64,000 nt of DNA from NCBI GenBank assembly GCA_037176845.1, contig JAYKXP010000033.1:310001-374000 (forward strand), in the 5' to 3' direction. The notes under the pieces are model-generated. The model was not told the DNA's origin. It saw nothing but the letters and a program-made list of their open reading frames with translations, and searched no databases. The translations under genes were made by a program, and so were the position numbers. Below, one piece after another: positions 33,721-64,000 of this stretch (positions are counted from its first letter, which is position 1; each line of letters begins with the position of its first letter). The DNA comes from Paramarasmius palmivorus (taxonomy: Eukaryota; Basidiomycota; Agaricomycetes; Agaricales; Marasmiaceae).

Positions 33721-33957
33721 TTGGGTGTGTTCTATACTGAACTGACTACCGAACATGGCCCTGCATAACCCCCAACCCTGCTGCATCTCATTAGTACCTT
33801 CAAAACCCTCCCCAACCTACGTACGCCGATCCCTCGTTCGAAGCTCGGAAGATTATGAACGGGTAGATGATCAAGAGGGGCGTAAAAGAAGCAGGGGACA
33901 TTCTTTGCCTTGTTATGCTCCTGGGGAATAACCGGATTCCTGGAGCCTATGATCGGT

Positions 33958-34050
33958 GAAAATGCGGTGTGTAGTGGCTAATATTGCACTCTTTCACGTT
34001 CAGCTCATTTCCGGTTTCAAAGCAGGCCGTTTCGATTCCCCGCCTTGGAA
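33958..34050 (+). pseudogene. tRNA-Glu(TTC) pseudogene
   Basis: GTGTAGTGGCTAATATTGC, CTCTTTCA and TTTCGATTCCCCGCCTTGGA are recognisable, but the 5' acceptor strand no longer pairs with the 3' strand. Confidence 0.7.
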
Positions 34051-42359: not shown

Positions 42360-43510
42360 AAACTGCCGACGATCAGATAAAATCGCCGCGAACACGAGTT
42401 GATGCTTCTAACTTTACCATCGCCATCCAAATGCCGACGGTGATTCGAATCGAACGTTTTTCCCTTTTTTTTGCTACGACGTTGATCAGTCTCTTCCCCC
42501 TCAAAATCCTTGTTTCCCTCGAGCTCACCTATTCAGACTCCCCCATTTCAATCGCCTTACGCCAACCACCCAGTCGTTCAGAAGATCAAGTTCCCTCCAA
42601 GACACGCTCAATGGCTCTCTTCCTTCGATACTCATCGGTCTCTCCGCTTCCGATACATTCGCCACTCTGGAGTCAGATCCACGTTGGATCCACGTATTTT
42701 TACGATTCAATAATCATCGTCAATGCCGCTTCCGATACCAACCTCGAAGGAATAAGCGTTATGATGTAACTATGGGTGTAGGTGAAGAATGAAGAGGGGT
42801 AAATATAGGGGAAAGGTACGTCTACCTTCACTACTACATTCCAGCTGTGAATCTGACCGCTACGGAGAATACACATCTTGGCTTTGGTCCAATCTTTACT
42901 CTCCTCAAACATGCCTTCCTCAACCAAATTGAAACCCCTTATTACGCTAGGAGACCTATATGTTTACACCCATCCGATATAAGACGGAGAGGGTATATCC
43001 ACGTCATTTTTCCGTGTGCCCCTCGGTGGATCTAGGAAGACCCCGGAGTGATAGTAGCAGAAGTGCTGGCGTACGGGCGTGTGGGCAGAGCTCAGGAGGG
43101 TGGTTATAGTTGTAGGGTATCACCGTCATGGACAGGTACGGTGGCTGTTCGTTTTCCTCCATTGATCATAATCTGATGTCACTCCCATTTCTTACCGCAC
43201 GCACCCCCATCCCTTCATTTCCAGGAGCGTTGATGCTGAATAAACATCTAGGCGAGGTACACTATTTTCATGGTAAAAGACTGGAGAACTGATTGATTAA
43301 TCTTCTCAGCTGAAGACATAAGTACAGTATTGAAGATCCGCTCACCCTGAACGCCCTGCGCTCTATCCACGTCGACTAAGCGAGTCCTAACTCTCGCCCA
43401 ATTCTGATTCATACAAACTATCATGAACACCATCTGGCGGAAGACCCCTTTCCGACTAATCGCTCGCGAGAGCGTACGCCGTTTTCCAACTGACACACTC
43501 AATGCCAAGC
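42360..43510 (+). repeat. Spacer module copy without tRNAs
   Basis: Carries the module blocks in order: R1 core (TTTACCATCGCCATCCAAAT near 42412), AAGACACGCTCAATGGCTCT (42598), GTACGTCTACCTTCACTAC (42816), CCCCTCGGTGGATCTAGGAA (43019), the CATTGATCATAATCTGATG block (43160) and TATTGAAGATCCGCTCACCC (43329). No tRNA-Glu is next to it. Confidence 0.7.
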
Positions 43511-44470: not shown

Positions 44471-46704
44471 ATGACACCGAACCCAGCCTTCGCAACCATT
44501 CTGATCATGGTGTCTCTACTATCACTGGGAGAATCGCAGAAATTTGCGTCTCCTCCATCCTGGCGGGTGCGTCTTGGAAATAACGTTCAATTCAAAACTG
44601 CATCGAAATACCTCAGAATACCTCCATTTCTACATCTTTGAGCGAAAGAATAGCTCGTGCAGACGCTGCCATAAGGACAGGGTTTAAAATAAGTAAGTCG
44701 AATCCTATATTTGTCACTACATTCTCAGCTGTTTTTTCTCCCGCTAGACTCCCAAGATGGCTCCATCGCAGATTTATATGCTCAGATGGCTGAATTTGAT
44801 CTCGCAACAGGTCAGGAGATCTATAAGGAGAGGCTGAGATCATCTATCTCAACAAGTGCCATTGAAAACCTAAATACCACTGAGTAGACCGCATTTCGTT
44901 TCGTTCTGATACACCATGGTATTGACAGAATTCTTCCAGTGTCAGTTGACTTTGACTCGTGCTTTCTGTGGCTGATATAACCTATGATATGCAGCTTGGC
45001 TACACACTGTGAGTAGTGATTTTAACTTCTCTGTGACAAGCGGCGTTTATCAACAATCCATGAGTTCGTACGGATATGCAGCTGCTCGTGCATTTTCGAC
45101 CTACAGAGATAGGGCATTCCTCTACGCTGCTCAAAGGACCTGGTCAATTGCGCAACTTTATACAGTGTCAGAGCTGGGTGTTAGTGTGGTTCGGGTATCC
45201 ACGAAGGGTACTGAATTCAACAAAGGCTGTTTTGAATGTCAGTATACGCTCTTAATTTTTTTCGGTATTATTAAACTCTTCCTTCTCTAGCATCCTGGGC
45301 TGGTGCAACTTTCATGGTAAGCTTCGACGCAGATTAAAGCACGATGTACATTGTGTGAATAGGGTGACCAGACAACCAATGTTCAAGATACTTATATCTC
45401 TGGACAAACCACAGGGTGAGATAGGAATGTGTACTCGTGACATGAGGCACTGATCATCTGGAATATTACTAGTTCTTTTATTCTGTAAGCTCCAAAAGAC
45501 TTTCTGGAACAGAATACTCATTTCCGTCAGGTTATCCGCTCTGTTGGCCGAAACAACCAGCAGCAAGATATACTCGGATGCTGCACTGTTGTCTATTCAG
45601 TTCGTGCACAATAAGCTGTATAGAGACAATGTTATGAGTTCAGACGCCCCGTCTGCCACTTCCAAGTTGTGTAACCTCAGAGTGTTTGAGGGTCCCGCTG
45701 GGACGGGTCTTTTGATAGAAAGCCTAGCTATCCTCGGAACAACTCGCCCAAACACAAGTTTGACAGACATGTAGGTTGTAATGGTTGAATAACTCAACTT
45801 AATCCTCACTGTCACCTCTTCACAGGCTCGAGAACACTGTATTGGCCGCCTTGCAAAAGCCAGAATGGCAGGGCGCAGACGGAATTAGTTCTTGGGGCGG
45901 TAAGTAGAGCAGTTTACTCGAAGAGTACATTCCTAACAGGCTTAAAAAACTCCTTAGGGAAAAAGGATGGAAATCAGTACATTGTACGGGGACTTGCAGC
46001 AGCATATAGTCGGAACGCTTCCACTGAGGCGTTCCGGAACTATATCAAGGATTATCTGAGCGTGCAGGTGAGATTCTAGTCTAATAGGATCATTCCAACC
46101 TCTCAAATTCATAAGTATAATGCTTTGATGAATCAAGCTACGTACAATGGGACAGATGTGTACGGTGAATCATGGATTGGTCCACCCTTAGCTGGGTTGT
46201 CTGGATCAGGTCAAACAGGTGCCGTAACCGCATTGATTGGCGGGCTACGCATATTCAACAACGAGTCTGTTACTCGGGATTCGCCACAGGGAACGCCGCA
46301 ATCAGCTCCAGCATTAGGTTCCAATATACCAGTTCGGTCAATCATAGGTGGTGTCATAGGTGGTGTCGTGCTCCTCATCATCGTTTGCACTGCTTTTTTC
46401 AAAATCTTTCGGCAGAGGTCGCGAAAAGCAGAATGCTAACATCACAATCCCCGAGCCCTACACAATCGAGTCCCTCTCTGTCAGAGACACAATACCACGG
46501 AAATTTCGTAGGATCATTTCGGAGGAAACTGTGGCTTCAGCAGATCCAGAGATGCATGAAGATAGGATAATTCCGGGACTTGGGAACAAGATATCGAATG
46601 CTGAGCTCTACCGTCTGCCGAGCGAGTGGTTGCAATCTAGCAGGTGGAACGAAACTGACCCACCTCCAGCATACCCACAAAGTGCGGCTGGCTCTCATGT
46701 TTGA
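44471..46704 (+). CDS. GH76-like membrane-anchored glycosidase 2, damaged
   Basis: Exon 44471-44566 gives a signal peptide (MTPNPAFATILIMVSLLSLG); intron 44567-44616; exon 44617-44692; intron 44693-44747; then DSQ/NSQDGSIADLYAQMAEF. Family blocks follow: YGYAAARAFSTYRDRAFLY (45068), SKIYSDAALLSIQFVHNKLY (45556), GTGLLIESLAILGTT (45700), YIVRGLAAAYSRNASTEAF (45980), YNALMNQATYNGTDVYGESW (46118), TM helix IIGGVIGGVVLLIIVCTAFF. Two problems: after LNTTE a stop at 44884 has no clear donor, and near 46420 the TM frame ends (RSRKAEC) while the conserved tail (NANITIPEPYTIESLSVRD...DPPPAYP) is in the next frame. Dropping one A in the run near 46425 would join them. Tail again ends in PPxY. Confidence 0.6.
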
Positions 46705-47577
46705 CAATAGTGTAGGGCCATCGAAGCGCCAAACATGTATTATGCGGGTTACGGTATAACTATCATCGAGATTATCAGGATCTTCCAGCATATCTGTATG
46801 GCAATCCATAAAAAAACTCTTCTGGTATACGCCCAGCCGCCAATGCATTCAGTAACCCATGGAGCCCAACACACTGGCTGTGCCAGCACCAAACAAGTAG
46901 TGATAGTTCAATTTGTGCTCTGTACCTGCGGGATCAGATCTAGGTGCGGTGAATTGAGGTCTTTGCGAACAATGTCGAAGCAGGTACTACTGATTATGAA
47001 TTTTATGCCGGAGCGCTTCGCTGACATCATTTCCGATATGATCTCGTCAAACCTGGGAGCGAAACTCCCTGAAGAGACGAGGATAGAATGTAGATGTGCA
47101 TTTCATCAAAGAGGAGATTTGGTGGATTGCGAGAATTGGGGTTTTTTCGGTGTCTTATTTATATTCCGATGTAGCTCGAAAGGGCTTCTCGAATGCGTTG
47201 GTGCACAGCGACCTCATGTCTGCGTTGTATTCATCCATAGATTGAGGGATTGAGGGATGGAATGGAGGGACCATGTTGGTTAATTGAGGTAATCATTTTA
47301 TCATGTTGCAACGTATTTCCTGAACTGCAGGTTTTAGGATTGTGTTATGTGTTCATTGTGGTACATTGGAAGGGTTCGGCATACGTTCCCATGTTTAGTC
47401 CAATGTGGCGTAGTGAATGATATTACTCTCTTTCATGATGGTCTATCTCAGGCAATTTCCAGATGCTTTGGGTTTGTAGCCTTGTATCCGGTTGCTAATT
47501 TTTGAGCTGCGATTTATGATCAATGAGGTCTGAGCTAATGATTGTTCTCTGCGCCAAGACATATCGGTCATCCACGA
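46705..47577. other. Intergenic with tRNA-Glu fragment
   Basis: No gene recognised. 47399-47440 holds a 5' half tRNA-Glu(TTC) relic (TCCAATGTGGCGTAGTGAAT ... CTCTTTCA) with no 3' half. Confidence 0.5.
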
Positions 47578-48517
47578 TCACAGTTCGTCGTCGCTACTGG
47601 GAGATAAGATCAAGTCTGCCCAGTGACCCAATTTTTTCACAATGCTTGGCTCGTTTTGCCTTATCAACTCCCTGACTGCTCCCTGATGCATCTTAGATTT
47701 AAAGAAGCATGATAGAACCTTCCACAAATCGGATTTCCTCTCCATTTCCTCCATGTCAGGTAGTCCCGGTGCTGGGACACGTAGGTCATTTGCCCAGTCA
47801 ATGAGAACCATCCGTTGTCCGTCGAAGAGTGCATGACCTTGACGCATATCGCTGTGGACAACATTATTCTTGTGGGCAGTATCAAGCATTTCTGCTGCTT
47901 CGCGCACCTGATCTCAGGGTTAGCTGAGATGATACAATCAAAAGGACAACTACGGCAATACCATGGCTGCATATTTCCTGATATCATGAAACTCTTTATG
48001 CTCTCCGGCATCCAATTCATTCGTGAATTCCAAGAAGGTCTTGGGAATGTGCTCGATAGCGAGGACGTCAGCATTCTCGCCCCAAGGAGTTTTCATAGTC
48101 TGTGATGTACGTCAATCCGTGAAAACATTGAATAGTTCACTGGGAGCTTGCCGTCTCAGCGAAAAGATACGGAATGCCTTGTCCTTGTAAGTCAGGGAGC
48201 TCCTTGTACACCGACTTCATTGCGGCCACTTGGACCGCTGATCGCTTGGAGGCTGGAATAATCTTGATCACCACCCTGCCGTTGAAACGGCTGTCGGAGG
48301 GCCTTGCGAGCCACACGTGAGAGTGGTGAGACGGCCCTTCTTGAAGAGGTGTTTCGAAGATGTAAGTGTGAACGTCGTCGAATGGAAGAGATGGGGGAGT
48401 TCGACTATCTGGACTTGTCGTTGGTCTGCTGAGGAAGAGAGACACTTGGTACCCCTGTGGAAATTGATTTGGTATCTTGCGCGAGATCAGAGGTAATGGC
48501 ATTGTGATAGAGGGCAT
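47578..48517 (-). CDS. Protein-kinase-like protein (3 exons, 277 aa) with GC-AG intron
   Basis: Exons 48152-48517, 47962-48099 and 47578-47907; frame closes at 834 nt. The N-lobe contains VWLARPSD and FNGRVVIKIIP (candidate beta-3 Lys). The hinge-like stretch is VLAIEHIPKTFLEF. The catalytic loop reads NVVHSDMRQGHALFD: HxD is present, but the usual downstream Asn is His. VLIDWAND replaces DFG. The protein is short for a kinase (the C-lobe ends soon after the DWA motif), like fungal kinase-like families. Whether it phosphorylates anything is open. The first intron starts GCAAGC rather than GT; the inverted paralogue at 49550 has GTAAGC at the same site, so this is a T-to-C change yielding a GC-AG intron. 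Confidence 0.75.
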
Positions 48518-48549: not shown

Positions 48550-48990
48550 TGGAAAATCATCATCGATTCGGAAGCTTTATCGACGATTAGAGAACCGTAA
48601 GAACACGTGGACCCGATTCGACAGCGCGGAGACCGAATGTCCAGGAGGAATGAGGTCGATGAATCTGGGATAGAGACATCGAACGTGTCTTGAAGCGACC
48701 TTCAACTTCTGAACGAGTGAATGGTTGGTATAGATAGGGATAGCGAACTTGGTATAGGCATGTTCGACCTCCACACCACGAGTCTCGCCAGATAGGTGAG
48801 TACGTTAAAAACCAAAATATATGAGGGGAAACAGACAGATCAATTTTGTGATAAAGAACCAAAAGATCAAAACGTACGATTTGAGCCACCGTCAGCGATT
48901 GGATGATGATGGTAAAGGAACAAGAAGCTTCAACCCGTATACGCCGGCAACCTCATTTGATGGCCGGCTGCTTCAGAGCAACGCCGTAAC
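48550..48990 (-). repeat. Spacer module copy, inverted
   Basis: Reverse complement of the module: on the minus strand the order is GGTTCTCTAATCG..., CAAGACACGTTCGATGTCTC and the R1 core with CTTTACCATCATCATCCAAT (about 48890-48920). It lies between the two head-to-head kinase-like copies. Confidence 0.7.
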
Positions 48991-49549
48991 AAAGTGGTGT
49001 CTTCGTGAAATAAAGGGCTAGTAGAGATTGGAAAGTGAACCAATGAATGAGTCGCAAAAATGTTTGTTCAAGGTCCACCATTCCGCTACAGGGAATCAAA
49101 GACTACCAAGTGGAATCGCGCGACTTCAACGATTGAGACCATGAGAGGCGATAGATGTGGTGTATGTGTAACTTCGTATATAGACTCCAACAAATACAAA
49201 GGAGTATGACTATGAGTCTGTGATGATTCTAGCTTGTGACCTTACAGCCTTCAAATAGGTTTTGACTCAATTGACGTCGATAGATATCGATCATCGATCA
49301 TCAACATTCCGATGCGTGGAATACCCCAAGCTGCTGTCAATTTGAGGTACTTGTAAGTTGCTGTACTCGGCTATCAATAATGCCCGGGAAAAGGCAGCCT
49401 AAATTCACAACAATTCATCATGCAGGCAATTAAATTCAGCGTGTTTGAAAGTTCGTGCGAATGCGCTAGTTTCTGCTGACCACATCATCGCGTGGTTCTG
49501 AGTATTAAGCGCAATCGATGATGTACTCCTCTCCAGACCCTCGATTACG
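48991..49549. other. Intergenic, no gene recognised
   Basis: Contains a short ATCGATCATCGATCATC run near 49287 and nothing else identifiable. Confidence 0.4.
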
Positions 49550-50703: not shown

Positions 50704-51192
50704 TTGTTAACTGGTCGAATAAAGAAATATGCAGCCGAAGCCCAATCCTCAGTGCCTATAATCAGACATTGGGATTCCAGTTTAGGCACCTCGACGCCGC
50801 GTATCGTGGATGTACCTCAAATTTCAGGAGAGTCATTTGTGTTCAACTCTTTACACGTGATTGGTTTGCTTTATCCAGGGCTACCCAGTACAGAACCGAA
50901 AGGTAAACGCCGTGTTGTATTTATTCCTGCCTCTCAAATGGAACGATGTCATTTTGCGAACGGGTAATTACGTGAAAGTCGCGTAGGCGGCGGTTGCCCT
51001 AATTAGCGTCGTTCTCGTTTAGTCTAAGCTCAATGTTCTCCCCGTGGAACGTTTATTTTCATTTGTTTATTGATTGAATTTTAGGGTGGTGGAGTGGTGG
51101 AGAAAGAGAGATACGAAGGACACCATTATGGAGGCACTGGACGTGGATCCTTTCCTTCCGTTTGATATGCGCGTGGTGATATGATTTGAACA
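50704..51192 (+). repeat. Pre-tRNA segment copy 1 with conserved frame
   Basis: Direct repeat of 57370-57807, each ending at a tRNA-Glu(CTC) gene. The first part keeps an open frame in both copies: RIVDV..., VFNSLHVIGLLYPGLPSTEP, KGKRRVVFIPA here, and RIVDVV..., VFNSLHVLGLLYLGAPSTEP, EGKRCVIFIPS there. Frame conservation suggests the end of an unknown coding region. I do not recognise the family and see no start or upstream exon. Confidence 0.5.
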
Positions 51193-51282
51193 TCCGTTAT
51201 GGTGTAGTGGCTAACATTATCGCCTCTCATAATTTGTGATTTCATGACGCGATAGCCCAGGGTTCGATTCCCTGTAACGGAA
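51193..51282 (+). tRNA. tRNA-Glu(CTC), 18-nt intron
   Basis: Acceptor TCCGTTA/TAACGGA, discriminator A. Anticodon stem ATCGC/GCGAT, loop CTCTCA + C with anticodon CTC at 51226-51228. Intron 51230-51247 after position 37. T arm CAGGG TTCGATT CCCTG. Opens unit A of the array. Confidence 0.9.
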
Positions 51283-51329
51283 TGCAGCGCCGTCCCCGAG
51301 GCTTTTACGTTTTCTCCCTTATCTGGTAT

Positions 51330-52320
51330 AGCCATTCAACTCTACGGCATAGTTGCCGGCGGACACCGAATTGAAACTTCTTTCGTTTACCATCACCATC
51401 CAACCGCCGACGGTGACTCGACATCGTACGTTTCTCTTTTTTTCCCTTCCTCTGCTACGACCTTGATTAGTCTTTTCCTCCTCAGAAATCTCCTTTCCAT
51501 CGAGCTCCCTATTCAACGACTCCAACTATCCAAGATCAACTTCCTCTCACGTTCGATGGCTCTCTCAGATGCTCATCAGCCTCGTTCCCGCTGAGGACCC
51601 TGTCGCTGCTCCTTGAAATTGAATCTCCTTACGGCTCTCTAATCGACGTCGATGCCGCTGCCGATACCAGCCTCGAATGGATGAGGGCTGTGATGGTAGT
51701 GTGGGTCAGGACAAATAAGAAGGGATTGGTACGTCCATATTAACCATTGCTTCGTTCTATTTGTGATACTGACTACTACGGAAGGTCTATAGCCTGGCTT
51801 TGGATCCAGTCCTTTTACCCCTCAACCACATCCAGGCCGCTAGGTTACGCTCACTTCGTATCAGACAGAAGGGGAACAATCATGTCGTTTTCCGTATACC
51901 CCTCGGTTGTACCAGGGAGACCGTGGAGTGATGGTAGCAGCATGGGCGTGTGGGTAAAGGTCAGGAGGGTGGGTGTATTCGGAGGGCACAGAAGGTATGT
52001 CGACTGTTTACCTCCCCCCATCGACCATGGTCTAATGTCGTTCCCATTCAGTACTCATCGCACGCGCACCTTTCTACTCATTTCTAGTCCTGTTGATACT
52101 GAACACAGATACCTTTGTAAGGTACGTCAACCGTTGGCTGCCATGATACAAGACTGATGGATATCGTTCTCTTTTCAGCCCAAAAACAGAGCTACATTAT
52201 TGAAGATCCGCCCAACATGAACACGCTTGCGCTCCACCCACGTCGGCTAGGCGACCCCTACGCTCTCGAGAGTAACAGGCTGATCCATTTGTCGGGATAG
52301 CATGGCGTAAAGTGACTAGG
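51330..52320 (+). repeat. Spacer module, unit A
   Basis: Blocks in order: GCATAGTTGCCGGCGGACAC, R1 core TTTACCATCACCATCCAACC (51390), CACGTTCGATGGCTCTCTCA (51550), GTACGTCCATATTAACC (51731), TCAGACAGAAGGGGAACAAT (51860), CATCGACCATGGTCTAATG (52020), TATTGAAGATCCGCCCAACA (52199). No frame is kept between copies, so it is not an intact gene. Confidence 0.8.
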
Positions 52321-52713
52321 AAGAGTTACATCGTTCGCTTGGTTCAATCGTGCGTTTCTTGGAACGAACTGCTGCGCTTGGGTGTTTGCCCTTTAATATC
52401 TCTTCCATGATACAGGAACGACCGATTATCGTTACGTTGGAGTATTGAAGATTCACTCACACAGCCTGCTACACGTCCTCAATGCGCTCAAGTCTACATC
52501 TGGCTGACAAACCTGCGCTTGCAAGGATACTTTGCCTATTGCCTTCAAGGATCGGAAGAGTGGCAATGGAGGCGCAGGTCGACGTTAAGAAGAGCAAGGA
52601 AGGCAAGTTCGTTCGCTCCCTTTGATTGTGCATTTGCAAGCTTGCCGTCTCCCACAGCTTTATCGCAAGGAAGAAATCGGTGAGTATATTGCCTGTAGCT
52701 CCGCCGTGGGCAG

Positions 52714-52806
52714 TCCAATGTGGTGTAGAGGCTAACATTGCTGTCTTTCATAAGGCTCTTCACGTGGTATTCACAGCAGCCCGGGGTTCGATTCCCCGCA
52801 TTGGAA
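52714..52806 (+). tRNA. tRNA-Glu(TTC), 21-nt intron
   Basis: Acceptor TCCAATG/CATTGGA, anticodon stem GCTGT/ACAGC, loop CTTTCA + C, anticodon TTC at 52747-52749, intron 52751-52771, T arm CGGGG TTCGATT CCCCG. D-loop GTGTAGAGGCTAACAT. Confidence 0.88.
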
Positions 52807-53015
52807 TAACTCTCATTTGGTCAGCATTTTGAGCGGCCTATTTGATCGTCTCAATGCAGGTGTCGTTTTACCTGGGTATACCGTTTGAACTTGTGGAATG
52901 GTATGGGTGATTTTGATTTCTCTTCGATGGACCCGTGACCGTTCTTTCGATTGGATATGTGGCTTCTTATACCGGTCATTGGACGATCCTCGAGTATGCT
53001 TTACGAGTAACGCAT

Positions 53016-53109
53016 TCCAATGTGGTTCAATGGCTAATGGTGCTTTCTTGAAACGGCGCTACCAATTATCGGATCACAGCAATTCGGGGTTCGATTCCTC
53101 GCATTGGAA
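53016..53109 (+). pseudogene. tRNA-Glu-like sequence with altered anticodon arm
   Basis: Acceptor stem and T-loop match tRNA-Glu(TTC). The D arm is changed (GGTTCAATGGCTAATGG), the T stem has one G-T pair, and the anticodon region reads GCTTTCTTGAAA. If folded on GCTTT/ACAGC (one mismatch) the anticodon would be TGA. Likely a pseudogene, though a shifted-identity tRNA is not excluded. Confidence 0.5.
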
Positions 53110-54039
53110 TTGATAATGGCAAAGCTTTTTACGTAGGAACCAAACCATTGATCTGATTCTTCACTAACGATAGTCTCGAGTTGTTTTTTTCTGAGAGCGT
53201 TCTCCCCATGCCTGAACTGTCGCTCTATTCGTTCGTCGAAAGATTGAACTACGCTATGAGCACCGTTATGTGAGAGCCTGTATTGCTACCCATCTTGACG
53301 GGTGTCAAACTACGAAGGTATAGCTTAATAGACCGTGTCCTGCATCAGTCCCAGTAAAAATAGGCTGGCAGAAGCTTCGCAGACCTAGAACGCACACGGG
53401 AATGGTCCGTCGATGGGAAAGCACGAGGTTGGTAGCACTCAATGGTTTGGAATTCTCAATCACTCCTGACCACGCGGAGAGCAGATTTTTGCAGATAGAT
53501 CCGCAAGAAATGTAAGTGATGTCTAATGGAAGCTCGTCGGCTCTGAAGCGACATAATGGGCGCTGTGATGCATAGGAATTCGATTTGAAAAAGCACGAGC
53601 GCTGAAGCTTCATTGTCAGCTCCGTACATAGAATACAGGATCCATGAAGCTTTGAACTCTCCTGAACGAATCATCGAGGAAAAGTATATATTTTCAATGG
53701 AAGTTTCAGGTACGATACTGTAGATCCCTGCTAAATCGCAATAACGGTGGGGAGATCTGTCGTTGAATACGCATGCTCATGTCTCAAATTCCACTGCAGA
53801 CAATACACGACATCGATCCGACTAGCACGGTAGTACGTGCCGCCCATGGAAGAAGCGAGTAGTCGCTGCTTGCTTGAGAATCAAACCTTCACATAATTTA
53901 TGGCCCCTATCATGGAAAGTCGCTTTTTAGAACGCTCATACGACGGCTCCATATAGGCACGAGATTCTTACTTCACTGGCTTCCACGCATGCGCAACGTA
54001 GAAGGAATTTCACATTACTTACTATTTGGTAACTGTCAA
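53110..54039. other. Array flank and junction with SSP block
   Basis: 53150-53290 resembles the DNA after the other TTC genes (CTATTCGTTCGT, GCTATGAGCACCG, GGGTGTC; compare 61180-61250 and 63190-63270). After about 53300 this homology ends and the inverted SSP block follows. No gene recognised. Confidence 0.5.
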
Positions 54040-54863
54040 TGGCGGGAGTACGTATTAATCTTTTCTTTCGGGAGAACGCTCACAATACTTACGGTATTGA
54101 ACACGTACGTTGACTTTGAAGACGAACAGAAGACGAATGATACAGCGCGGCCGCTCTGAACTGCATAGGTCACAATCGTGATGCTTATGATATTCTCTTT
54201 CGAGAACTCAAGGCTGGAAGAAACCATTAACGAGATTAACCACAGCAAACTTACATGACAGAATGAGCGGCACACCAATTCGGTTCGAAAAATTGCGAGC
54301 GCTGAATTCACCACTTTCGATGCAACTCTATTTATTTCTGGTATATTCTTCCACTTGCTGGGCTGACTCTGTGAGCATAGTCATGAGGACGTTTTTCTAC
54401 GAGTTCGACATTCGGATCTCAAAGTACTAGTGAGGTGTATGCTAGTCCCAGGTGCGTCACCGCTGACGGAAAGTAAGATCTCAATGGTCAAATGAATGAG
54501 GCTCACTCCAATATTCCATTTCACAAGATCCTAATCATCATACCCAAGTCCCGAATTACCTCTAGATCCACGTCAAGGTTATACGACCAGCGTATAGTTG
54601 GAGTTTCTCAAGCGGTATATTGTCTAGTAAACCACCCCGATCATTTCCCCGACACCAATGCAGACAATATACGATCACGGATATCATTTCTTGACAATTT
54701 CAATTACAACGAAATGTTCGGGTTGACTACGCCGCACTCTAACTATAGCTAGTCTGAATATCCCAAAAAGTAACTCATCCAGAGCTGTAGATTACGGTAC
54801 AGCACTGATTTGAGCTCCATGCTCCTCGGTTCGCACCCTAGCTAAACTTAGAGCCCTGCCAGG

Positions 54864-54870
54864 TATAAAA
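54864..54870 (+). promoter_or_regulatory. TATA box of SSP-3
   Basis: TATAAAA 65 nt before the ATG at 54929. Confidence 0.55.
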
Positions 54871-54928
54871 GAAGTAGTAAAGCAGTCAGAGAAACATATC
54901 AAACTCGCATTCTGTAAACTCACTCACA

Positions 54929-55269
54929 ATGCACTTCCCAACTGCTACTATCGCTGCTACCATCCTTGCAGTCACTTCTCTCGTTGCTGCAGGTACGAAG
55001 ACTCGCACAGATTTCTCTTGCATTGGATAATGACTCATTCGACTATCTGTTCAGGCGGTCCAGAAATCTGCACAAAGAACAAGGACGGCTCTGGTGGTAC
55101 AGATTACCAAGTCACCAAAGACTGCTGCGCTGCTGTCAAGCATAAGGCGTACTTCAACGAGGTTGCGAAGCAATGCTGGCCTTACGCTGGTCCCGCTGGA
55201 AACAGCGTCGATACCGGCGAAATGGTCAAGTGTTGCGCTAGCCGTGGCTGTGGCAGCAAAGCCGTCTAA
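54929..55269 (+). CDS. Small secreted Cys-rich protein SSP-3 (92 aa)
   Basis: Exon 54929-54992 (signal peptide MHFPTATIAATILAVTSLVA), intron 54993-55054, exon 55055-55269. Same length and seven-cysteine plan (C-CC-C-CC-C) as SSP-1. It differs in the loop PYAGPAGNSVDTGEMV and has lysine in CCAAVKHKAYFNEV. It is the mirror partner of SSP-2. Secreted by its signal peptide; role unknown. Confidence 0.88.
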
Positions 55270-55494
55270 ACTTGTAAGGAGTTCTTATCGATGTACCCAG
55301 AATCGCTAATAACCTACTTGTCCTAGACGATTGTATGAGCGGTATCTCTGAAGAAGCGGAAACTATACGAAAATCAATAGAAAATAGTGTTACGAGTAAC
55401 ATGATATGTTCAAATATAGTATGTGTGGCGCTGGCTTGTGTTATTTAGGGCCGGGTGTGAGAAAACGTAACTATAAATTTATAACCTGTTGTGC

Positions 55495-55585
55495 ACAATG
55501 ATTTCATCGTTGAATCATTCAGATCATCGGATCGACGCGAGCTTTCTGATGATTCACTTGCAAGGTGGTGTTTTCGGATGCCCGT
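55495..55585. repeat. SSP downstream element, copy 4
   Basis: Inverse of the element seen at 23070-23180, lying 3' of SSP-3 (CACAATGATTTCATCGTTGA ... GGTGTTTTCGGATGCCCG). Confidence 0.65.
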
Positions 55586-56624
55586 AGGGCCCTTACATTA
55601 CACACATAGACCTGTAACCAGTCCCTAGTGAGTCGTGACGATGACAAGTCATGTACTAGGCTGCTTGCTCGTCGCGTGAGGGGCCAGTTCCAGGTCTATT
55701 ACACACAGTGAATGCGCTAAGACCAGAGGCACTTACCAAGCATGGTCTGACAATAGATAGACGTAGAATCATGGTCAGTGTCATCCGGTTCAATAAATTC
55801 AGCGATCCTCAGGACGAAGATCAGGAGATCCACGGACGGGAAGAAATATTGAAGTATAATTCCCCCTCGAGAAGCCGAGAACCTAGTGCCTAGTGGAATT
55901 GAGATTCTTGCATGATATTCTCCATGAGATCAGGATATTACCTGGTACTTCTTAGAATGAGATTCCGAACGAGATGACAATATTCTGATAGTGATCCTTG
56001 AATCACAGTATGTAACGATGGGCACCACTCAGATGAATGAGCGGCATGCCAAGTGGGTCGAGGAACTGCGCGGGGCGCTCAATTCACCTTGGTCTGTTTA
56101 TACCTGTTCAATCTTAATTGTGTAATTAAACAATCTTACTCCAATATTCCGTTCGACAGGATCCCGATCACCGTAACCAGTTCCACATTACCTCTAGATG
56201 CACGTAAAGATCATAAGACCAGCATTTAGTTTATGCTTCTCCGGCAGAATACTGTCGAGTTCTTTGTCCCGATCAGTTCCTCGACTCCAACGCAGACATG
56301 ACACGATCACGGGTATCATTCCAGGTAGTGTGAAGTATAACAAATCGCTCGGGTCACCTACTGCAACGCTCCAACCATAGCCAATTTCAATGTTCCAAAA
56401 AGCAACTTTTACCATCTCCCGAGTAAATTGGCTCGAAAAGCGTCAAATCATATCTCATGGCCAAGATGACAAGACGTTCTCCCGCCTTCAATTTCAGCAT
56501 CTATGACGGTTGACTTTGACGGTAGGCTATCGGGGGTTTTGAATGGTGATACAGCGCGTGGAGAGTCAAGTCAAACTCCGTGCTCCCCGTCCCACATCTT
56601 GTCCAATTTGTCAAGTCGTTCAAG

Positions 56625-56631
56625 TATAAAA
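56625..56631 (+). promoter_or_regulatory. TATA box of SSP-4
   Basis: TATAAAA 60 nt before the ATG at 56685, in AAGTATAAAAGAGG, which is also present upstream of SSP-1. Confidence 0.55.
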
Positions 56632-56684
56632 GAGGTTGAAGGTAGTCACAAAATGGTATCAAACTAGCACTCTCACAAGACACA

Positions 56685-57017
56685 ATGCACTTCTCAACTA
56701 CTACTATCGCTGCCACCGTTCTTGCAGTTACTTCCCTTGTTGCTGCAGGTATGGGAATGTTCCTTTTCCTTTGACTATCGACCTATCTAATAACTTTTAT
56801 AGGTGGTCCAGAAGTCTGTACAAAGAATAAGGACGGCTCTGGTGGTACAGATTACCAAGTCACCAAAGACTGCTGCGCTGCCGTCGATCATAAGGCGTAC
56901 TTCAATGAGGTTGAGCATGCATGCTGGCCTCAGGCGGGTCCGCTCGGAAACCAGGTTGATACCGGCAAAATGGTCAAGTGTTGCACCAGCCGTGGCTGTG
57001 GCAGCAAAGGTGCCTAG
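56685..57017 (+). CDS. Small secreted Cys-rich protein SSP-4 (92 aa)
   Basis: Exon 56685-56748 (signal peptide MHFSTTTIAATVLAVTSLVA, identical to SSP-1), intron 56749-56802, exon 56803-57017. All seven cysteines are kept. The mature part is the most divergent of the four: GPEVC, YFNEVEHACWP, DTGKMVKCCTSRGCGSKGA. Mirror partner of SSP-1. Secreted; role unknown. Confidence 0.88.
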
Positions 57018-57274
57018 ACTTGTGAGCTATTACTAGTCATGTTATCAGAATCGCTAATAAGTTGCTTGTCCCAGATTATTGCACGAGCGGTATCTCTGAA
57101 ATAGAAAATATACGAAAATCAATGGAAAATAGTGTATGAGTAACCTGTTATGTTCAAATATAGTATGCGTCCCCAAAATGGATGGTCAAAGCGAGAGTTG
57201 GTCTGTTTAAGCCCGAAGTTGATGGTATCAGTGGCGGTGTGAAAATACCATAACGCGAACAGAACATAAGTTCT

Positions 57275-57365
57275 GCACAATGATTCCATCGGTGAACAAC
57301 TCAGAGCATCGCATCGCGGCTCACTTCTCAGCAATTCACTCGCAAGGTGTTCGCATGTCCGTAGG
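57275..57365. repeat. SSP downstream element, copy 5
   Basis: Inverse of the element at 21165-21275, 3' of SSP-4. The inverted-duplication homology ends here, and the pre-tRNA segment begins a few bases later. Confidence 0.65.
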
Positions 57366-57369
57366 AATA

Positions 57370-57807
57370 TTGAGCGCCTCGAAGCGTATCGTAGATGTAG
57401 TACCAACCGCAGGAACGTTACTTGTGTTCAACTCTTTACACGTACTCGGTTTGCTTTATCTAGGGGCACCCAGCACAGAACCGGAAGGTAAACGTTGTGT
57501 TATATTTATTCCTTCCTTTCAAACGGAATGATATTTTGCGAATGAGGAAGTACGTGAAAGGTGCGTCGGCAGTTGCCTTAATTAGCGTTGTTCTCGTTTA
57601 GTCTAAGTTCACTGTGTAACGTTCGTTCTCATTTGTTGATCGATTCCTCTGTGTGTTCGTTGGTTGAATTATGGGCGGTGGAATGGAGAAAGAGAGATAC
57701 GAAGGAGACCGTTATGGAGGCACTGAGGTAAAAATGACGTGAAACCTTTCCTGCCGTATGATATCGAGTGAGCGTGAGGTGATACGATTGCATAAGATCC
57801 TGCTCCA
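57370..57807 (+). repeat. Pre-tRNA segment copy 2
   Basis: Direct repeat of about 50790-51192, with the same conserved frame (stop at about 57531) and the same purine-rich GAAAGAGAGATACGAAGGA block before the tRNA. Confidence 0.7.
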
Positions 57808-57903
57808 TCCGTTATGGTGTAGTGGCTAACATTATCGCCTCTCATGGTTTTGATTTATTATTTCATGACGCGATAGCCCAGGGTTCGATTCCCTGTAACG
57901 GAA
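57808..57903 (+). tRNA. tRNA-Glu(CTC), 24-nt intron
   Basis: Same mature sequence as the gene at 51193; anticodon CTC at 57841-57843; intron 57845-57868. Its last four bases (GGAA) are part of the 9-bp target duplication of the adjacent TIR element. Confidence 0.9.
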
Positions 57904-57908
57904 TAGGG

Positions 57909-59031
57909 TAGACTCGTGCCCATTCCCGTTCGGTCTCGTACTCGGGCTTAATTTCTTATCGGAGTAACTCTTTGATGATGAAAAGGAGGATGACGGCAGG
58001 GAAAGGTACGAGACCGAAGGGACTGGTCCAAACCGGGGCCATTTTGGCAGGCCCTGCCAAACGTGAGTTTGGACTTAGTGAAATCAGCGTGTTTCATCAA
58101 TGAAGCAAATACAAAAATCTAAATACTGGCGTCCCTCCCCAGAATACAGCCAAAAAACTAATATGACCTGTTAGACAAACATGAGACGAGTCAGGAAAGT
58201 CATATAGAAACTAAGAAAACCAGAATGGTACCGTACCACGCAAGATCTTGGCTCTAGAAGCACGAAAATCTGGTCATGCCAGGTCATCTCCCCACATAAC
58301 CTCAAGTGACATACCTTAATGGGTAGAAGATAACCTCCGTAGACAAGAGAAATGGCCTGTACACTGGTAGGTAACCTAACGATGCAGCAATTGAGGATTT
58401 TGGGTGTCATAAGCCATGTAGCCGCGTCTTTTGGGAGCAGGACAGCGAATCCAAGTGCTCCAAGAGGTAATTTGGACGACAAAGACACCATAGTCAAGTC
58501 CTGAGGTGACGAAGTTTTCACATGGTGTATCTGTGACGGTTTGTAGGAGTTTAAAAGTCCAGAACGATAGGTGAGGTACAGAAATCGGGCTCGACAACGT
58601 TCCGGTGAAGTCTAAAACGTCCTAAAACGATGAATAGCATTGTAAGCGTCAACTGCGAGTGATATATATTACGCACCTATAACCTTCAATACCCAATACC
58701 AGCACCAGAGACTTCATCGTGACCGAAACCATGAAATTTTCGACCATTTTAATGCCATTTCCGCAGTATAGCATCTCTAGGTCTTTGCGACATGGAATAA
58801 AGTCACGCCGGACACTTGAGGAGCGGATTAAAAGCAGGGGATAGGGATCGTCGTGGGGGAACGGAGGAAAGATGTTTTTGATGAGCTTGATTTCACTAAG
58901 TCCAAACTCACATTTGGCGGGGCCTGCCAAAATGGCCCCGGTTTGGACCAGCCGCTTCGCAGTCCTGCCTTCTCCCCTCACGTAAATCAAAAAATATCCC
59001 CGGACTGCGAACGCGGCTGGAACCGAGCCTA
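57909..59031. mobile_element. Non-autonomous TIR DNA transposon (1123 bp)
   Basis: Flanked by the direct repeat GGAATAGGG (57900-57908 and 59032-59040). Ends are TAGACTCG and CGAGCCTA (7 of 8 inverted matches), with imperfect inversion continuing for about 30 bp. An almost perfect 64-bp subterminal inverted repeat lies at 58023-58086 and 58888-58951 (starts CTGGTCCAAACCGGGGCC). The roughly 800-bp centre has short minus-strand frames but no recognisable transposase. A 9-bp duplication fits Mutator-like elements; an 8-bp (hAT) size plus one chance match is possible. It splits tRNA-Glu(CTC) from its spacer module, which resumes at 59041 as in unit A. Confidence 0.8.
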
Positions 59032-59040
59032 GGAATAGGG

Positions 59041-60290
59041 TTCCCAATCCTTTTACGTTTCTCCCTTATGCAACTCTACGGCATAGTTGCCGGCGGACAC
59101 CGAAATGAAGCTTCTTTTTCCTTTACCATCACCATCCAAATGCCGATGGTGACTCGAAATCCTACGTTTCTCGTTTTTTTCTTCCTCTGGTACGACGTTG
59201 ATTAGTCTGTCTCCCCTCAGCGATCTTGTTTCCCTCGAGCTCACTTATCCACCGACTCAATCGTCCTATACCAACCATCCAGTCGTTCAGAAGGTCACGG
59301 TCAATGGCTCACTCCAATCCCATTCTCGCGAAGACCCCGTCGCTGCTTCCTAGAATCTGATCCGCGTGTTCTTACGGTTCTCTAATCGATGTCGGTGCCG
59401 TTTCCGATACCAATCTTGGTTGGATGAGGGATGTGGACCTAGGCGAAGAGGGAAAGGTACGTCTACCTTCGCTACTGCTCTGTTCCGACTGTGATTCTGA
59501 CTGCTACAGAAGATCTACAGTTTCGCTTTGGGTCCAGTCTAATCGCTCCTCAACCGAATCCAAGCACCTCGTTACGGCTAGGAGATCAACATGGATATCA
59601 GACAGAAGAGGAACAATCGTGTTGTTTTCCTCATACCCCTCAGTTGGTCTAGGAAGATCCCGGAGTGATTGTAGCAGGGGTATTGGCGTGGGGGGGTAGG
59701 TGAATTCGGCGGGTGTTACTGTACACGGAAGGTACGTCGACTGTTTGCCTCCCTCCGTCAATCCTAATCTGATATTGTTTTCATTCTCTTGTCATAGCAC
59801 GCACACTTTCCTCCTTTTGTTCCTGAGTATGTTGATCTACATCGACCGTTCGCCTCTACAATTCAAGACTGATCGATATCGCTCTCTTTTCAGCCCAAGA
59901 TAGGACTACAGCATTGAAGATCCGCCCATCATGAACACGTATCCTCAAAGCCTTACGTCGGCTAGGCGAACTCTACGCCCTCAAGAGTACCAGGTCGATC
60001 CATTTGTCGGGCTAACACGTCGCAAAGGAACCAGGAAGCGGTACACGGGTCAAATGTGCGTTCCTTGAAACTGATTGTTCCCTTTGCGAGCTTTCCCTCT
60101 GAAATCTCTTAAATGATACAGGAACAATCGATTATTGTTAAGTTGGAGTATTGAAGATTTACTCGGATAATCAGCTACAGGTCCTCGACCTGCTCAAATA
60201 TACATCTCGAAACCTGTAACCTTCAATGTTCATCGGGCAGAAGGGTACGAAGGGAGATCAAGGACATGCTAAGGTGACTCTGCACTCCTT
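59041..60290 (+). repeat. Spacer module, unit B
   Basis: Same block order as unit A: CTTTTACGTTTCTCCCTTAT (59049), GCATAGTTGCCGGCGGACAC, R1 core (59122), GTACGTCTACCTTCGCTAC (59457), TCAGACAGAAGAGGAACAAT (59599), GTACGTCGACTGTTTGCC (59732), TATTGAAGATCCGCCCATCA (59913), GATTATTGTTAAGTTGGAGT (60130). The GTACGT steps look like splice donors; matching acceptors are kept only in some copies. Confidence 0.8.
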
Positions 60291-60411
60291 GGAACTAATC
60301 TTTCACTTTGCAAAGTCGCCCTCTACCATAGTCCCAAATCCTGGGTTTCCACATCTCTATCGCACGGAAGAAAAGGGTGACTATGGTCTCCCGTAACTCC
60401 GTTGTTGACAG

Positions 60412-60490
60412 TCCCAATGTGGTGGATTGGCTAACGGCTGTCCAAGCGGTGCTGTACACAGCCGCCCGGGTTCGATTCCCAGCATTGGAA
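60412..60490 (+). pseudogene. tRNA-Glu(TTC) pseudogene
   Basis: TCCCAATGTGGTGGATTGGC ... GGGTTCGATTCCCAGCATTGGA. It has an extra base in the acceptor, a changed D-loop, a broken T stem and no CTTTCA anticodon loop. Confidence 0.7.
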
Positions 60491-60696
60491 ATACTGGTCT
60501 CAGTGTGTTTGTTCACGTTTTTTGATGCGGGTGTGACAAAGACAGTGGCTGTCGTTTTTGGCTGGATTGTCGGTATTCACCTCACGTCTTTTCACTTGTA
60601 TTGGCATGAACCTGGAAATGTTATTTCTCCACGGTGTGGGTGCGTTTGATCGAATAACGACGGCTCTTCCCGTTAGACAGCGTCTAGGCGTTGCAA

Positions 60697-60789
60697 TCCA
60701 ATGTGGTGTAGTGGCTAACATTGCTATCTTTCATAAGAATCTCAATTGTGTATCCACAGCAGCTCGGGGTTCGATTCCCCGCATTGGAA
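60697..60789 (+). tRNA. tRNA-Glu(TTC), 21-nt intron
   Basis: Mature part nearly identical to the gene at 52714. Anticodon TTC at 60730-60732, intron 60734-60754. The anticodon stem GCTAT/ACAGC has one A-C mismatch, so function is slightly less sure. Confidence 0.8.
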
Positions 60790-61346
60790 TGATGTAACGA
60801 TATGAAGTGTTGTTTTTGAGGTGTGAGTCGGCGTACCTGTCTTTTTATGTGGTCTATGTACCGAGGGGAGGTAAATGACATTTGGACGTGGTTGATTCTT
60901 CTCGTTAATCTGAAAGCATGAGATTATTCGTATTACCGTTGCTTCGACGCGTTATCTACACTTCGGCTCGCAGTAGGGACGATAAGGCTAAGATCGGTGA
61001 AGACCCTCAAAGCTGGCTGAGCGTCAGGACTTTGATCAGCAGTTCAGTTTTTCGATTCCAGAGCTATAGCATTTTGGATGGTAATTACTGGAGTATATTC
61101 CTCGCGAAAGATGGGAGTTTCGACTTGTATCTTTTTTGCTTAGAGCATTCTTCTCCAGGTCCGAACCGTGGCTCTATTCGTTCGTCCTTGAGCTACGCTA
61201 TGAGCACCGGGATGTGAGAGCTCTTTATTGCTATTCATGATGGGTGTCGTAGAGGTATGAAGTATGAAAGTACTGTGTTGCTACATTGGATACAATTAGG
61301 CATATGAGGAGACAAGATAGCCCCTGCGCGTGGAGCCAAGAATCAT
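60790..61346. other. Inter-unit spacer B-C
   Basis: Shares CTATTCGTTCGT, GCTATGAGCACCG and GGGTGTCG with the spacer after units A and C. No gene recognised. Confidence 0.5.
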
Positions 61347-61440
61347 TCCGTTATGGTGTAGTGGCTAACATTATCGCCTCTCATGTGTCCCAACCGGTGA
61401 ACTCGCGCGATAGCCCAGGGTTCGATTCCCTGTAACGGAA
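61347..61440 (+). tRNA. tRNA-Glu(CTC), 22-nt intron
   Basis: Mature sequence as at 51193; anticodon CTC at 61380-61382; intron 61384-61405, unrelated in sequence to the introns of the other copies. Confidence 0.9.
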
Positions 61441-61559
61441 CATTCAGTTTTCCCTCTGATTTTGCAACTTGGACCTGTTACTCTATTTTCTAATCTCAGT
61501 ACCTGCTTTTCTCTACACCACGATACCATTGGCACGACGAAGCTTTGTTACGACGTCAC

Positions 61560-62860
61560 TCCGAAGCAGCCGGTGATCAGATCAAGTTGCCGGCGGCGGA
61601 CACGAGTTGACGCTTCTTCCTTTACCATCACCATCCAAACGCCGACTGTGACGCCAACTGTGACTTGAATCGTACGATTTCTTTTTTTCTGTTCCTTGGC
61701 TTCGACGTTGACTGCCTTTTCCCCCTCAGACGTCTTGGTTCCCATGAGCCTACCTATCCACCGACTCTTATGCATATGGCATGTAAGTAGGACATGCCTG
61801 CACCGACTTACCCATCTCAATCGTCCTACGCCGACGATTCACTTGTTCAGGATACCAGTTCCCTTCGAGACACGCTCGATGTCTCCATCCGACACTCATC
61901 TGTGGCGTTCACTACTGTCGCACCCTGGCACTTCATCTACGCGTTTGGACTTCCGTTTATCGTCAATGCTTGCGATGCCGACTTCGAAGAAATGAGGGTT
62001 ATGATGCGGGGATGGGTGCAAGTCAAGCAGGTCAAATACAGAGGAAAGGTACGTTTATGTTAACCACTTCTCCGTTCCAGCTGTGGCTGACTAGTTTTGG
62101 ACTGGCATCACCTTACCGCTACCGAAGATCAACATTTTCGCTCTCTTGACATGTTCTATCACTCCGAAACACGGATACTCCTTCTGCTACCTCCTCCGAG
62201 TTCGAAGCTCTTTACCTTGTTGTTTGCCTATCTGGCCTCTCAACAACCTTGAAAAACATGCAGATATTCCTCCCCTCCGTTGATCTAGACCCCGGAGTGA
62301 TGTTGGCGCACCAGATGCAACCTACTCCAACCCTGAACCGAATCTAGGCCTCTCGTACCAATATGTTTACGCCCATTCAATATCGGACAGAAGGGGAGAA
62401 GACACATCGTTTCTTGTATACCCCCGTGGATCTAAGGAGACCACGTAGGGAAGGTAGCAGTGGGGCGTATGGGTGTTTAGGTAGAGCTCAGGAGGAGTGG
62501 GTTTACTGGGAGGGTGCCACTATACACGAAAAGTACGTCGACTGTTCGCTTCCCTCCATCGATCATGATCTGATATTCTTCTCGTTCAGTTCTCATCTTC
62601 CCTTCGTTCCCAGGCATGTCTATGGTGAATACAGACATCCGTGAACGCCCACTCGTGCTCCATCCACGTGGGCTAGGCGAGGTCTACGCTCTCCGTGATA
62701 ATGTTTTGTTTATGTTAAGGGATCAGGACAAAGTACGTTAGACTCGTCGCTTTGTTTGCCTTCTCTGATATCAGGACTAGGTTCTCTTCTCGTATGAGCA
62801 TCGGGTTGTTGAAGATTCCCTCGCCCAACACTCACAGCGGTCAAACCTACACCTGACCGA
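61560..62860 (+). repeat. Spacer module, unit C
   Basis: R1 core at 61620 (TTTACCATCACCATCCAAAC), GAGACACGCTCGATGTCTCC (61868), GTACGTTTATGTTAACCAC (62050), TCGGACAGAAGGGGAGAAGA (62383), CATCGATCATGATCTGATAT (62559), then the tail block near 62780-62850. It ends before the TTC gene at 63008. Confidence 0.8.
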
Positions 62861-63007
62861 CCCAAAATCCGCGGATCCTTGTAGGAAATGACTGCACAGG
62901 CGTAGGAACACCCAGCAGAAGGGAACGTACGTCCATTTGGTGGCTTTGATCGTGCGCTCCAAGTTTACCGCCTTCGATGATCCCAAAATCCTCAGCCTGT
63001 TCCACAA

Positions 63008-63101
63008 TCCAATGTGGTGTAGTGGCTAACATTGCTGTCTTTCATAACACTGGCCAAAGACACATACACAGCAGCCCGGGGTTCGATTCCCCGCATTGGA
63101 A
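63008..63101 (+). tRNA. tRNA-Glu(TTC), 22-nt intron
   Basis: Acceptor TCCAATG/CATTGGA, stem GCTGT/ACAGC, anticodon TTC at 63041-63043, intron 63045-63066, T arm CGGGG/CCCCG intact. Confidence 0.9.
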
Positions 63102-63413
63102 TTGTCTAAAGTCATGGCTTTTTGGATAGGAACTATTCGAGTCCAAAGGTAGTTTCGAATTGTATACTTTGAAGTGCGTTTGTTTGCCTCAGAGCAACCA
63201 TCGCAAGCTTGAACCATCCTTTCGGTTATGCTATGGAGAACACTGTTATATTATTGATGGGTGTCGGTGCTGAGGGTGTAGAAGTGATTGGTTTTTTTCC
63301 TATCTAATCACGATCGCATTATCAGCAGTCTTCGCTTTGAGTATGAACGGACTATGCTTTTGGAGAAGCTACAACCGGGGAATGATGGACCCCTCGTTTG
63401 AGAAAGGCAGTAA

Positions 63414-63504
63414 TCCGTTATGGTGTAGTGGCTCACATTATCGCCTCTCATGTCCTGGAATTGTGACGGCGCGATAGCCCAGGGTTCGATTCCCTGTAAC
63501 GGAA
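63414..63504 (+). tRNA. tRNA-Glu(CTC), 19-nt intron
   Basis: Anticodon CTC at 63447-63449, intron 63451-63469. One D-loop change from the other copies (GGCTCAC for GGCTAAC). Starts unit D. Confidence 0.9.
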
Positions 63505-63639
63505 TGACAGCTGCCACGACAATTTTTGTCTCCTTGAGTCAACGATCATCGATCATCTTCCATCTGATCATTCCCTGTTTTGCTGGGTTTCACTAGGTTA
63601 TGTTTTCCTATGAAGTCTTTACCAGTACTACACTACGTC

Positions 63640-64000
63640 TTCTTTTCGCTTTACTATCACCACCCAAACGCCGAAAGCTCGAATCGTTTTAAAAGCCTCA
63701 TCAATCGACATTTCTCCCTATTTATGAGTGCTGCTTCCACTTCTATCCCAGAGTGATGACATGCTACGCGGACTTCCTCACCTCAGACATTCTGTACCGA
63801 CTACAAATGCTCAAAATATCACGGAGCCCATTCCTTGAGGTCGTCAAAACCCGCTCAATGTCTTCCTCCGGAACTCATCAATCCCCTCGATTCATGGAAT
63901 CGAATCCAGCCGGTCTCATATCCGAGTTGTATTGGAGGTAATCACTTTATCGTGTTTACAGATTGGATTGTCATAGTCATTCGTTCGAAAACCCAGATAT
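63640..64000 (+). repeat. Spacer module, unit D (cut by window end)
   Basis: R1 core TTTACTATCACCACCCAAAC at 63650, then diverged module sequence to the window edge. The array therefore probably continues beyond this window. Confidence 0.65.

Follow-up and report, generated by a model that had tools for sequence, protein, structure and literature searches.

Tandem or clustered transfer RNA (tRNA) genes have been described for protists, plants and animals (PMC12308677, PMC2888827), among them the SYY cluster of Arabidopsis, which consists of tandem tRNA-Ser, tRNA-Tyr and tRNA-Tyr genes (PMC12308677), and the tandem tRNA arrays of Entamoeba histolytica (PMC2888827). In Tricholoma bakamatsutake, tRNA-Ile(TAT) has been amplified and accounts for 275 of the 277 tRNA-Ile genes (PMC10627285). 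No nuclear tRNA-Glu cluster in a mushroom appears among the matches listed for open PMC titles and abstracts, a scope that leaves most subscription journals outside. Here we analyze such a cluster in Paramarasmius palmivorus, an agaric (Agaricales) of the family Marasmiaceae, whose assembly comprises 68.3 Mb in 393 contigs. The window, the whole stretch of 64,000 nucleotides that was analyzed, covers bases 310001-374000 of contig C33 (545,599 bp), and window coordinates are used unless a contig prefix (C33:, C281:, C64: and so on) is given. The locus is probably, with a probability that we put at about 0.8, a birth-and-death cluster of nuclear tRNA-Glu genes that grew from a duplicated cassette.

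In the array, four tRNA-Glu(CTC) genes alternate with three tRNA-Glu(TTC) genes around a spacer of about 1.4-1.6 kb; all seven lie on the plus strand, and two pseudogenes accompany them:

51193-51282, plus strand: tRNA-Glu(CTC), 50.1 bits, perfect exons, 18-nt intron
52714-52806, plus strand: tRNA-Glu(TTC), 48.2 bits, one mismatch in the 5' half, 21-nt intron
53016-53109, plus strand: tRNA-Glu(TTC) pseudogene, 28.8 bits (just below the cut-off of 29), 13 mismatches
57808-57903, plus strand: tRNA-Glu(CTC), 49.5 bits, perfect exons, 24-nt intron
60413-60490, plus strand: pseudogene derived from tRNA-Glu(TTC), 21.2 bits
60697-60789, plus strand: tRNA-Glu(TTC), 43.0 bits, two mismatches, 21-nt intron
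61347-61440, plus strand: tRNA-Glu(CTC), 49.7 bits, perfect exons, 22-nt intron
63008-63101, plus strand: tRNA-Glu(TTC), 50.0 bits, perfect exons, 22-nt intron
63414-63504, plus strand: tRNA-Glu(CTC), start of unit 4, 45.3 bits, one mismatch in the 5' half, 19-nt intron

Scored in small-region or lax scans against the Rfam tRNA model, whose gathering score is 29 bits, the seven genes reached 43.0-50.1 bits. The initial annotation had described seven intact-looking, alternating plus-strand genes, and this description stands: in a test fixed beforehand, none of the seven scored as a pseudogene, the two pseudogenes being additional. Their introns measure 18-24 nt and lie directly after position 37 of the anticodon loop, and four genes (51193, 57808, 61347 and 63008) carry perfect family exons. 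A pattern for the B box, allowing one mismatch, matched the window 15 times against 3.8 expected, a number reached in 0 of 100 shuffles, and a run of four or more T (T4+) occurs within 40 nt downstream of every gene except 57808. When the entire window was scanned with default settings, Rfam showed just two of the seven genes; ARAGORN identified three correctly, gave a wrong reading for three others and overlooked one, errors that we attribute to the introns. Standard annotation can therefore under-count this tRNA family.

The genes are embedded in a repeated unit, whose recognizable parts in the window are the following:

50799-51192, plus strand: duplicated upstream flank of unit 1 (50799-51283, gene included, aligns to 57384-57904 at 76%)
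51334-52501, plus strand: spacer module of unit 1, core at 51392, 71.7% identical to 59068-60207
57384-57807, plus strand: duplicated upstream flank of unit 2, aligned to that of unit 1
59068-60207, plus strand: spacer module of unit 2, core at 59128
61585-62990, plus strand: spacer module of unit 3, core at 61627, with blocks common to units 1 and 2
63656-63677, plus strand: spacer core of unit 4, with little else of the module recognized

The spacers of units 1 and 2 are 71.7% identical over 1,195 aligned columns, and a further match of 532 columns at 76% spans about 0.4 kb of upstream flank together with the CTC gene. This shared flank and spacer bear out the proposal that CTC gene, spacer and TTC gene form one amplified unit. 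The best-conserved part of the spacer is a core of about 45 bp, recognizable in 20 aligned copies, while neighboring spacer is often 65-75% identical; it begins 110-217 bp behind the tRNA gene in units 1, 3 and 4 and in a relic at 32.7 kb, the tRNA genes being followed by a T run. Searching the genome with 22 bases of the core at up to three mismatches, a threshold that more diverged copies would escape, we found 36 matches and none with the reversed pattern as control. These fall on C33 (19, at 334,698-435,996), C192 (6), C281 (5) and C355 (6), with none on any other contig in this search, which argues for local duplication and against a traveling repeat, given that the last three contigs are presumed haplotigs. 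We measured the proximity of cores and tRNAs over a stretch of about 100 kb of C33 by 5000 random shifts. Five of the 19 cores have a CTC copy no farther than 300 bp upstream, where 0.47 would be expected and 13 of the 5000 shifts attained that number; counting tRNA-Glu copies, relics and weak fragments alike, 11 have one within 1.3 kb (4.5 expected; 14 of 5000 shifts), so that the association of module and tRNA-Glu, which could have been accidental, exceeds the random shifts even with eight cores standing apart.

Decayed copies extend the cluster to the left of the seven genes:

31905-31996, plus strand: degenerate tRNA-Glu(CTC) at the left end of the cluster, six exon mismatches, halves matched at 95% and 89%
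32678-34050, plus strand: decayed whole unit with CTC relic (32678-32769), core (32986-33007), TTC relic (33969-34050) and spacer similarity
42419-42440, plus strand: spacer core copy with no recognizable tRNA-Glu within 1.3 kb upstream
48889-49100, minus strand: inverted decayed unit with core (48889-48910) and a 3' fragment of a CTC gene (49081-49100)

The counterpart of the inverted unit on C281 has a fuller CTC relic, at C281:12610, adjoining that contig's own copy of the core. To the right of the window, C33 bears TTC genes at 382958, 388905 and 390538 and degenerate copies at 382537, 407013 and 447204, the region from 410 to 545 kb being covered at a few short places only. The TTC genes C33:382958 and C33:388905 have identical introns and lie within a 0.74-kb duplication (72404-73102 and 78324-79057 in the numbering of the C33 stretch) at 86% identity. 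No other tRNA-bearing copies on this stretch resemble each other as closely, and a younger step in the growth of the cluster is visible in this pair.

Evidence for constraint on the genes comes from a comparison of exons with the DNA around and within them. Whereas 28% of spacer sites differ between units 1 and 2, the CTC exons differ at 0 of 72, an outcome with a chance of about 4e-11 were the exons to evolve neutrally at the spacer rate; the exons would therefore be under purifying selection. Genome-wide, we fetched and parsed 74 tRNA-Glu genes and relics, both haplotypes counted, of which 52 are intact (at most two mismatches to the family exons) and 22 degenerate; 38 have perfect exons. 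Those 38 genes contain 36 different introns, a count in which near-identical introns of presumed alleles pass as different, and mean intron similarity is 0.32 over 2080 pairs compared with 0.29 for shuffled introns. Identical exons flanking unrelated introns speak against a recent exchange that homogenized entire genes; they favor selection acting on the exons. Of the 52 intact genes, 51 have a T4+ run no more than 40 nt downstream, the exception being 57808, compared with 44 of 206 control windows. AT content in 10-nt blocks gave no clear AT-rich promoter zone upstream of the tRNA-Glu genes, and pre-tRNA structures folded from energy alone were not clean cloverleaves.

Based on these observations, we propose that an ancestral block, composed of about 0.4 kb of upstream flank, a tRNA-Glu(CTC) gene, 1.4-1.6 kb of spacer and a tRNA-Glu(TTC) gene, would have been copied several times over a chromosome region of about 100 kb, in most cases head to tail and with at least one copy inverted. 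Unequal or ectopic recombination of the ordinary kind, in a region rich in duplications, would have produced these copies, in favor of which we count the other local duplications on the C33 stretch, of F-box-like and DUF5948 genes. Selection would then keep the exons of the working copies, while introns and spacer would drift neutrally and surplus copies be lost.

Additional evidence comes from a comparison of contigs. C281 is largely collinear with the window at 29.0-62.3 kb, with long matches at 82-98%, indels and one inverted piece, and around two tRNA relics the matches between C192 and C33 reach 87-100%. Judging from these alignments, C281 and C192 would be the other haplotype of the C33 region and not further duplicates, and C355 probably is as well. 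The collinearity of C281 and C33 implies that the array is present in both presumed haplotypes. At 52714, the change in the 5' half occurs on C33 only, the C281 copy being perfect; conversely, the C281 counterpart of 61347, about 1 kb from the end of that contig, has one extra base among its first bases, which C33 does not have. Such haplotype-specific lesions suggest that the copies on the two haplotypes have been damaged independently, as a birth-and-death process predicts. The alignment of C281 with C33 also breaks at an insertion within unit 2:

57910-59031, no strand assigned: insertion resembling a DNA transposon with terminal inverted repeats (TIR), 1,122 bp, absent from C281

A 10-bp direct repeat (GGAATAGGGT, at 57900-57909 and 59032-59041) borders the insertion, whose inner inverted arms measure 84 nt and are 89% complementary. 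It has the look of a non-autonomous TIR DNA transposon, with a target duplication of 10 bp, and begins 6 bp behind tRNA-Glu 57808, and the first T4 run of that gene is shifted to 139 nt downstream. C149, C18, C85 and C31 have long copies that are 95-97% identical, suggesting recent activity of the transposon, and C22 holds two parts at 99%.

Several observations weigh against the birth-and-death interpretation. We infer, rather than observe, the allele status of C281, C192 and C355. Three of the seven genes in the window have one or two exon mismatches, so that constraint may be partly relaxed, and a T4 run within 40 nt also persists at 21 of the 22 degenerate copies, which means that terminators alone do not show function. 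With no recognizable tRNA-Glu within 1.3 kb upstream of 8 of the 19 cores, the spacer would also have multiplied alone or lost its tRNAs. Finally, the spacer of unit 3 matches units 1 and 2 in blocks only, at 69-76% with one 37-bp block at 86%. The module of about 1.5 kb with the same ordered blocks, as initially claimed for three units, is thus found in units 1 and 2, whereas unit 3 shares it in blocks and unit 4 has the core with little else recognized; the array is further interrupted by the 1.1-kb transposon within unit 2 and by two DUF5948 genes between units 1 and 2.

The alternative that survives best is that the array owes its retention to selection for, and not mere tolerance of, extra glutamate tRNA dosage, a possibility that we regard as tentative. 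It draws on the distribution of these genes across the genome, where patterns for the 3' half (at most three mismatches, haplotigs included) located 52 CTC-type and 17 TTC-type sites on many contigs. A neighbor within 2 kb is found for 25 of the 52 CTC sites, 2 of the 17 TTC sites and none of 16 control tRNA-Ser(AGA/CGA) sites; within 10 kb the fractions are 37/52, 10/17 and 4/16. The general expectation that tRNA genes are usually dispersed hence describes tRNA-Ser in this genome and fails for tRNA-Glu(CTC), which is unusually clustered, in groups with unrelated flanks and with perfect exons at several clusters. A second CTC cluster is located on C64 and its presumed haplotig C229, with flanks unrelated to those of the C33 cluster; no DNA match longer than 130 bp exists between C229 and the C33 stretch. 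Introns are 18-30 nt long in 23 intact clustered genes (C33, C64, C75, C170) and 6-23 nt in 12 dispersed ones (Mann-Whitney p 2.4e-5), the dispersed loci being on C2, C4, C26, C37, C38, C49, C58 and C154, and four dispersed CTC genes have another acceptor stem. Set against selection for dosage are the decay of several copies and the fact that duplication and loss in neutral balance would lead to an identical pattern; moreover, the clustering was compared with one control isoacceptor group, in counts that mix both haplotypes. Effects of the array on dosage and recombination, as the initial annotation had suggested, would be plausible. Given that the introns mostly differ, they constitute natural barcodes by which precursor-tRNA data could tell which of the dozens of genes with identical exons are on, and expression tagged in this way would directly test selection for dosage versus tolerance of duplicated tRNA copies.

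On C229, a stretch of 1.6-1.7 kb adjoins tRNA-Glu(CTC) three times (5076-6831, 11660-13335 and 46350-48038, 69-71% identical), one of the three tRNA copies being degenerate. The frames of the one copy examined suggest a putative single-pass membrane protein with a C-terminal PPTYES motif.

Elevated mutation beside tRNA genes has been described (PMC8113476, citing Thornlow 2018), and we compared presumed alleles with regard to such an effect in the cluster on C64/C229 and in a third one on C75/C264. Mismatches, summed by hand and pooled over allele pairs, amount to 82 of 290 sites within 25 nt of the tRNA versus 142 of 1439 at 101-240 nt, where flanks may be misaligned (Fisher p 8e-15, on pooled sites that are not independent). 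The excess is seen in five of six pairs; a further pair, C64:162961/C229:42517, the sixth of the C64/C229 cluster, aligned on one side only and was left out. It is milder in five pairs of degenerate copies (18/250 vs 43/1327), showing that the effect is not confined to intact genes. At the window's own genes we rejected a mutation hot zone, as the same comparison yielded 6/222 and 25/1207 (Fisher p 0.61); with another aligner, the 50 nt upstream contained 14 mismatches in 247 sites, nine of them at one gene. The clearest pairs, C64:165229/C229:45031 and C64:168153/C229:47944, are presumed alleles that differ at 2 and 0 exon positions and yet have unrelated introns (similarity 0.33 and 0.25), with upstream flanks 98-100% identical at 400-800 nt and downstream flanks that stay diverged. 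It is conceivable, if doubtful, that tRNA-Glu genes in duplication-prone islands have frozen exons with introns and nearest flanks (tens of bases) that change extremely fast, driven by transcription-associated mutation or by paralog exchange at the tRNA body. This idea applies to the clusters on C64/C229 and C75/C264 and not to that of the window, and we hold it at this level because downstream similarity in the two clearest pairs never returns to near-identity, such that rearrangement or exchange is possible.

A less probable alternative to the birth-and-death reading holds that the spacer is itself the essential gene or regulatory unit, either a decayed gene family or a non-coding RNA, with the tRNA genes as passengers. 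We consider this unlikely, even though the core of about 45 bp has been kept in the 20 aligned copies and is followed by a GTACGT...CAG stretch that, by our own visual assignment, resembles a spliceosomal intron. In one spacer frame, third codon positions vary most (0.35 vs 0.20 and 0.26 in 23 copies), a signal confined to 10 codons. No reading frame spans the whole spacer in the stop-to-stop frames of the 11 copies compared, no coherent gene surrounds the core in the 25 copies whose frame was examined, and a protein database search with one 134-amino-acid spacer frame returned two candidates, none at E<=1. We rejected the spacer as a protein gene based on these frame comparisons, the protein search and codon-position diversity, from which the weak codon signal remains. 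A known RNA was likewise rejected, since Rfam at E<=1 detected no RNA family other than tRNA in 50.5-64 kb. Even so, the spacer may be a decayed local gene family.

Least of all do we favor a mobile tRNA-bearing repeat, whether like a short interspersed element (SINE) or transposon-borne, that spreads the CTC-spacer-TTC block by itself, as the initial annotation had considered: its many copies, the eight cores without a nearby tRNA-Glu and the one inverted copy would fit, but dispersed insertions at unlinked loci were not found, all 36 core matches at up to three mismatches belonging to one stretch and its presumed haplotigs while tRNA-Glu sites occupy many contigs, no consistent reading frame or protein relative of the one frame searched was found, target-site duplications or end structures were not noticed around the units (no systematic scan was made), and six of the seven tRNA genes keep their T run. 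Nor does the spacer look like a tRNA-targeting retrotransposon, since no reverse transcriptase or integrase frame runs along the copies (one frame having been searched against proteins) and no core match at up to three mismatches lies by other tRNA families elsewhere.

Other repeats and an organellar contig were observed alongside the cluster. The F-box-like genes at window positions 309-15842 form a tandem family of local extent, with DNA identities of 71-91%; the family match was obtained for two of three frames tested, one of these below the family cut-off. At 54478-57268, between units 1 and 2, are two small genes, the one tested being DUF5948, and inverted copies of them at 73-88% lie about 30 kb away, at 21514-24476. 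Contig C168 has many intron-free tRNA matches, including two pairs exactly 78,999 bp apart, and is probably the mitochondrial genome assembled past its circle.

Taken together, the cluster is an instructive case of a known process and not a new kind of system. Arrays of tRNA genes in Entamoeba are long and near-identical, in contrast to the P. palmivorus cluster, which is short, diverged and partly decayed, and Tricholoma bakamatsutake is another agaric. The locus shares with Entamoeba histolytica the placement of tRNA genes in tandem repeats, and with the clustered tRNA genes of animals such as zebrafish, stickleback and Nematostella the formation of clusters with a fast-changing local organization (PMC2888827); the main text of that animal survey does not contain the word "fungi", and P. 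palmivorus provides a fungal case. As in T. bakamatsutake, one isoacceptor is greatly amplified, which for that species is described by copy number (PMC10627285). The closest likeness in detail is to the SYY cluster, where a mixed tRNA unit has likewise grown by tandem duplication, intron variants separate clustered from dispersed genes, and a core of major copies has flanks richer in pseudogenes (PMC12308677). The SYY unit serves two amino acids and comprises 54 clustered tRNA-Tyr genes, whereas that of P. palmivorus combines two glutamate isoacceptors, with a spacer of 1.4-1.6 kb, few units and about 72% spacer identity; silencing and root-tip expression of SYY have been shown experimentally (PMC12308677), and the P. 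palmivorus cluster is known from sequence alone.

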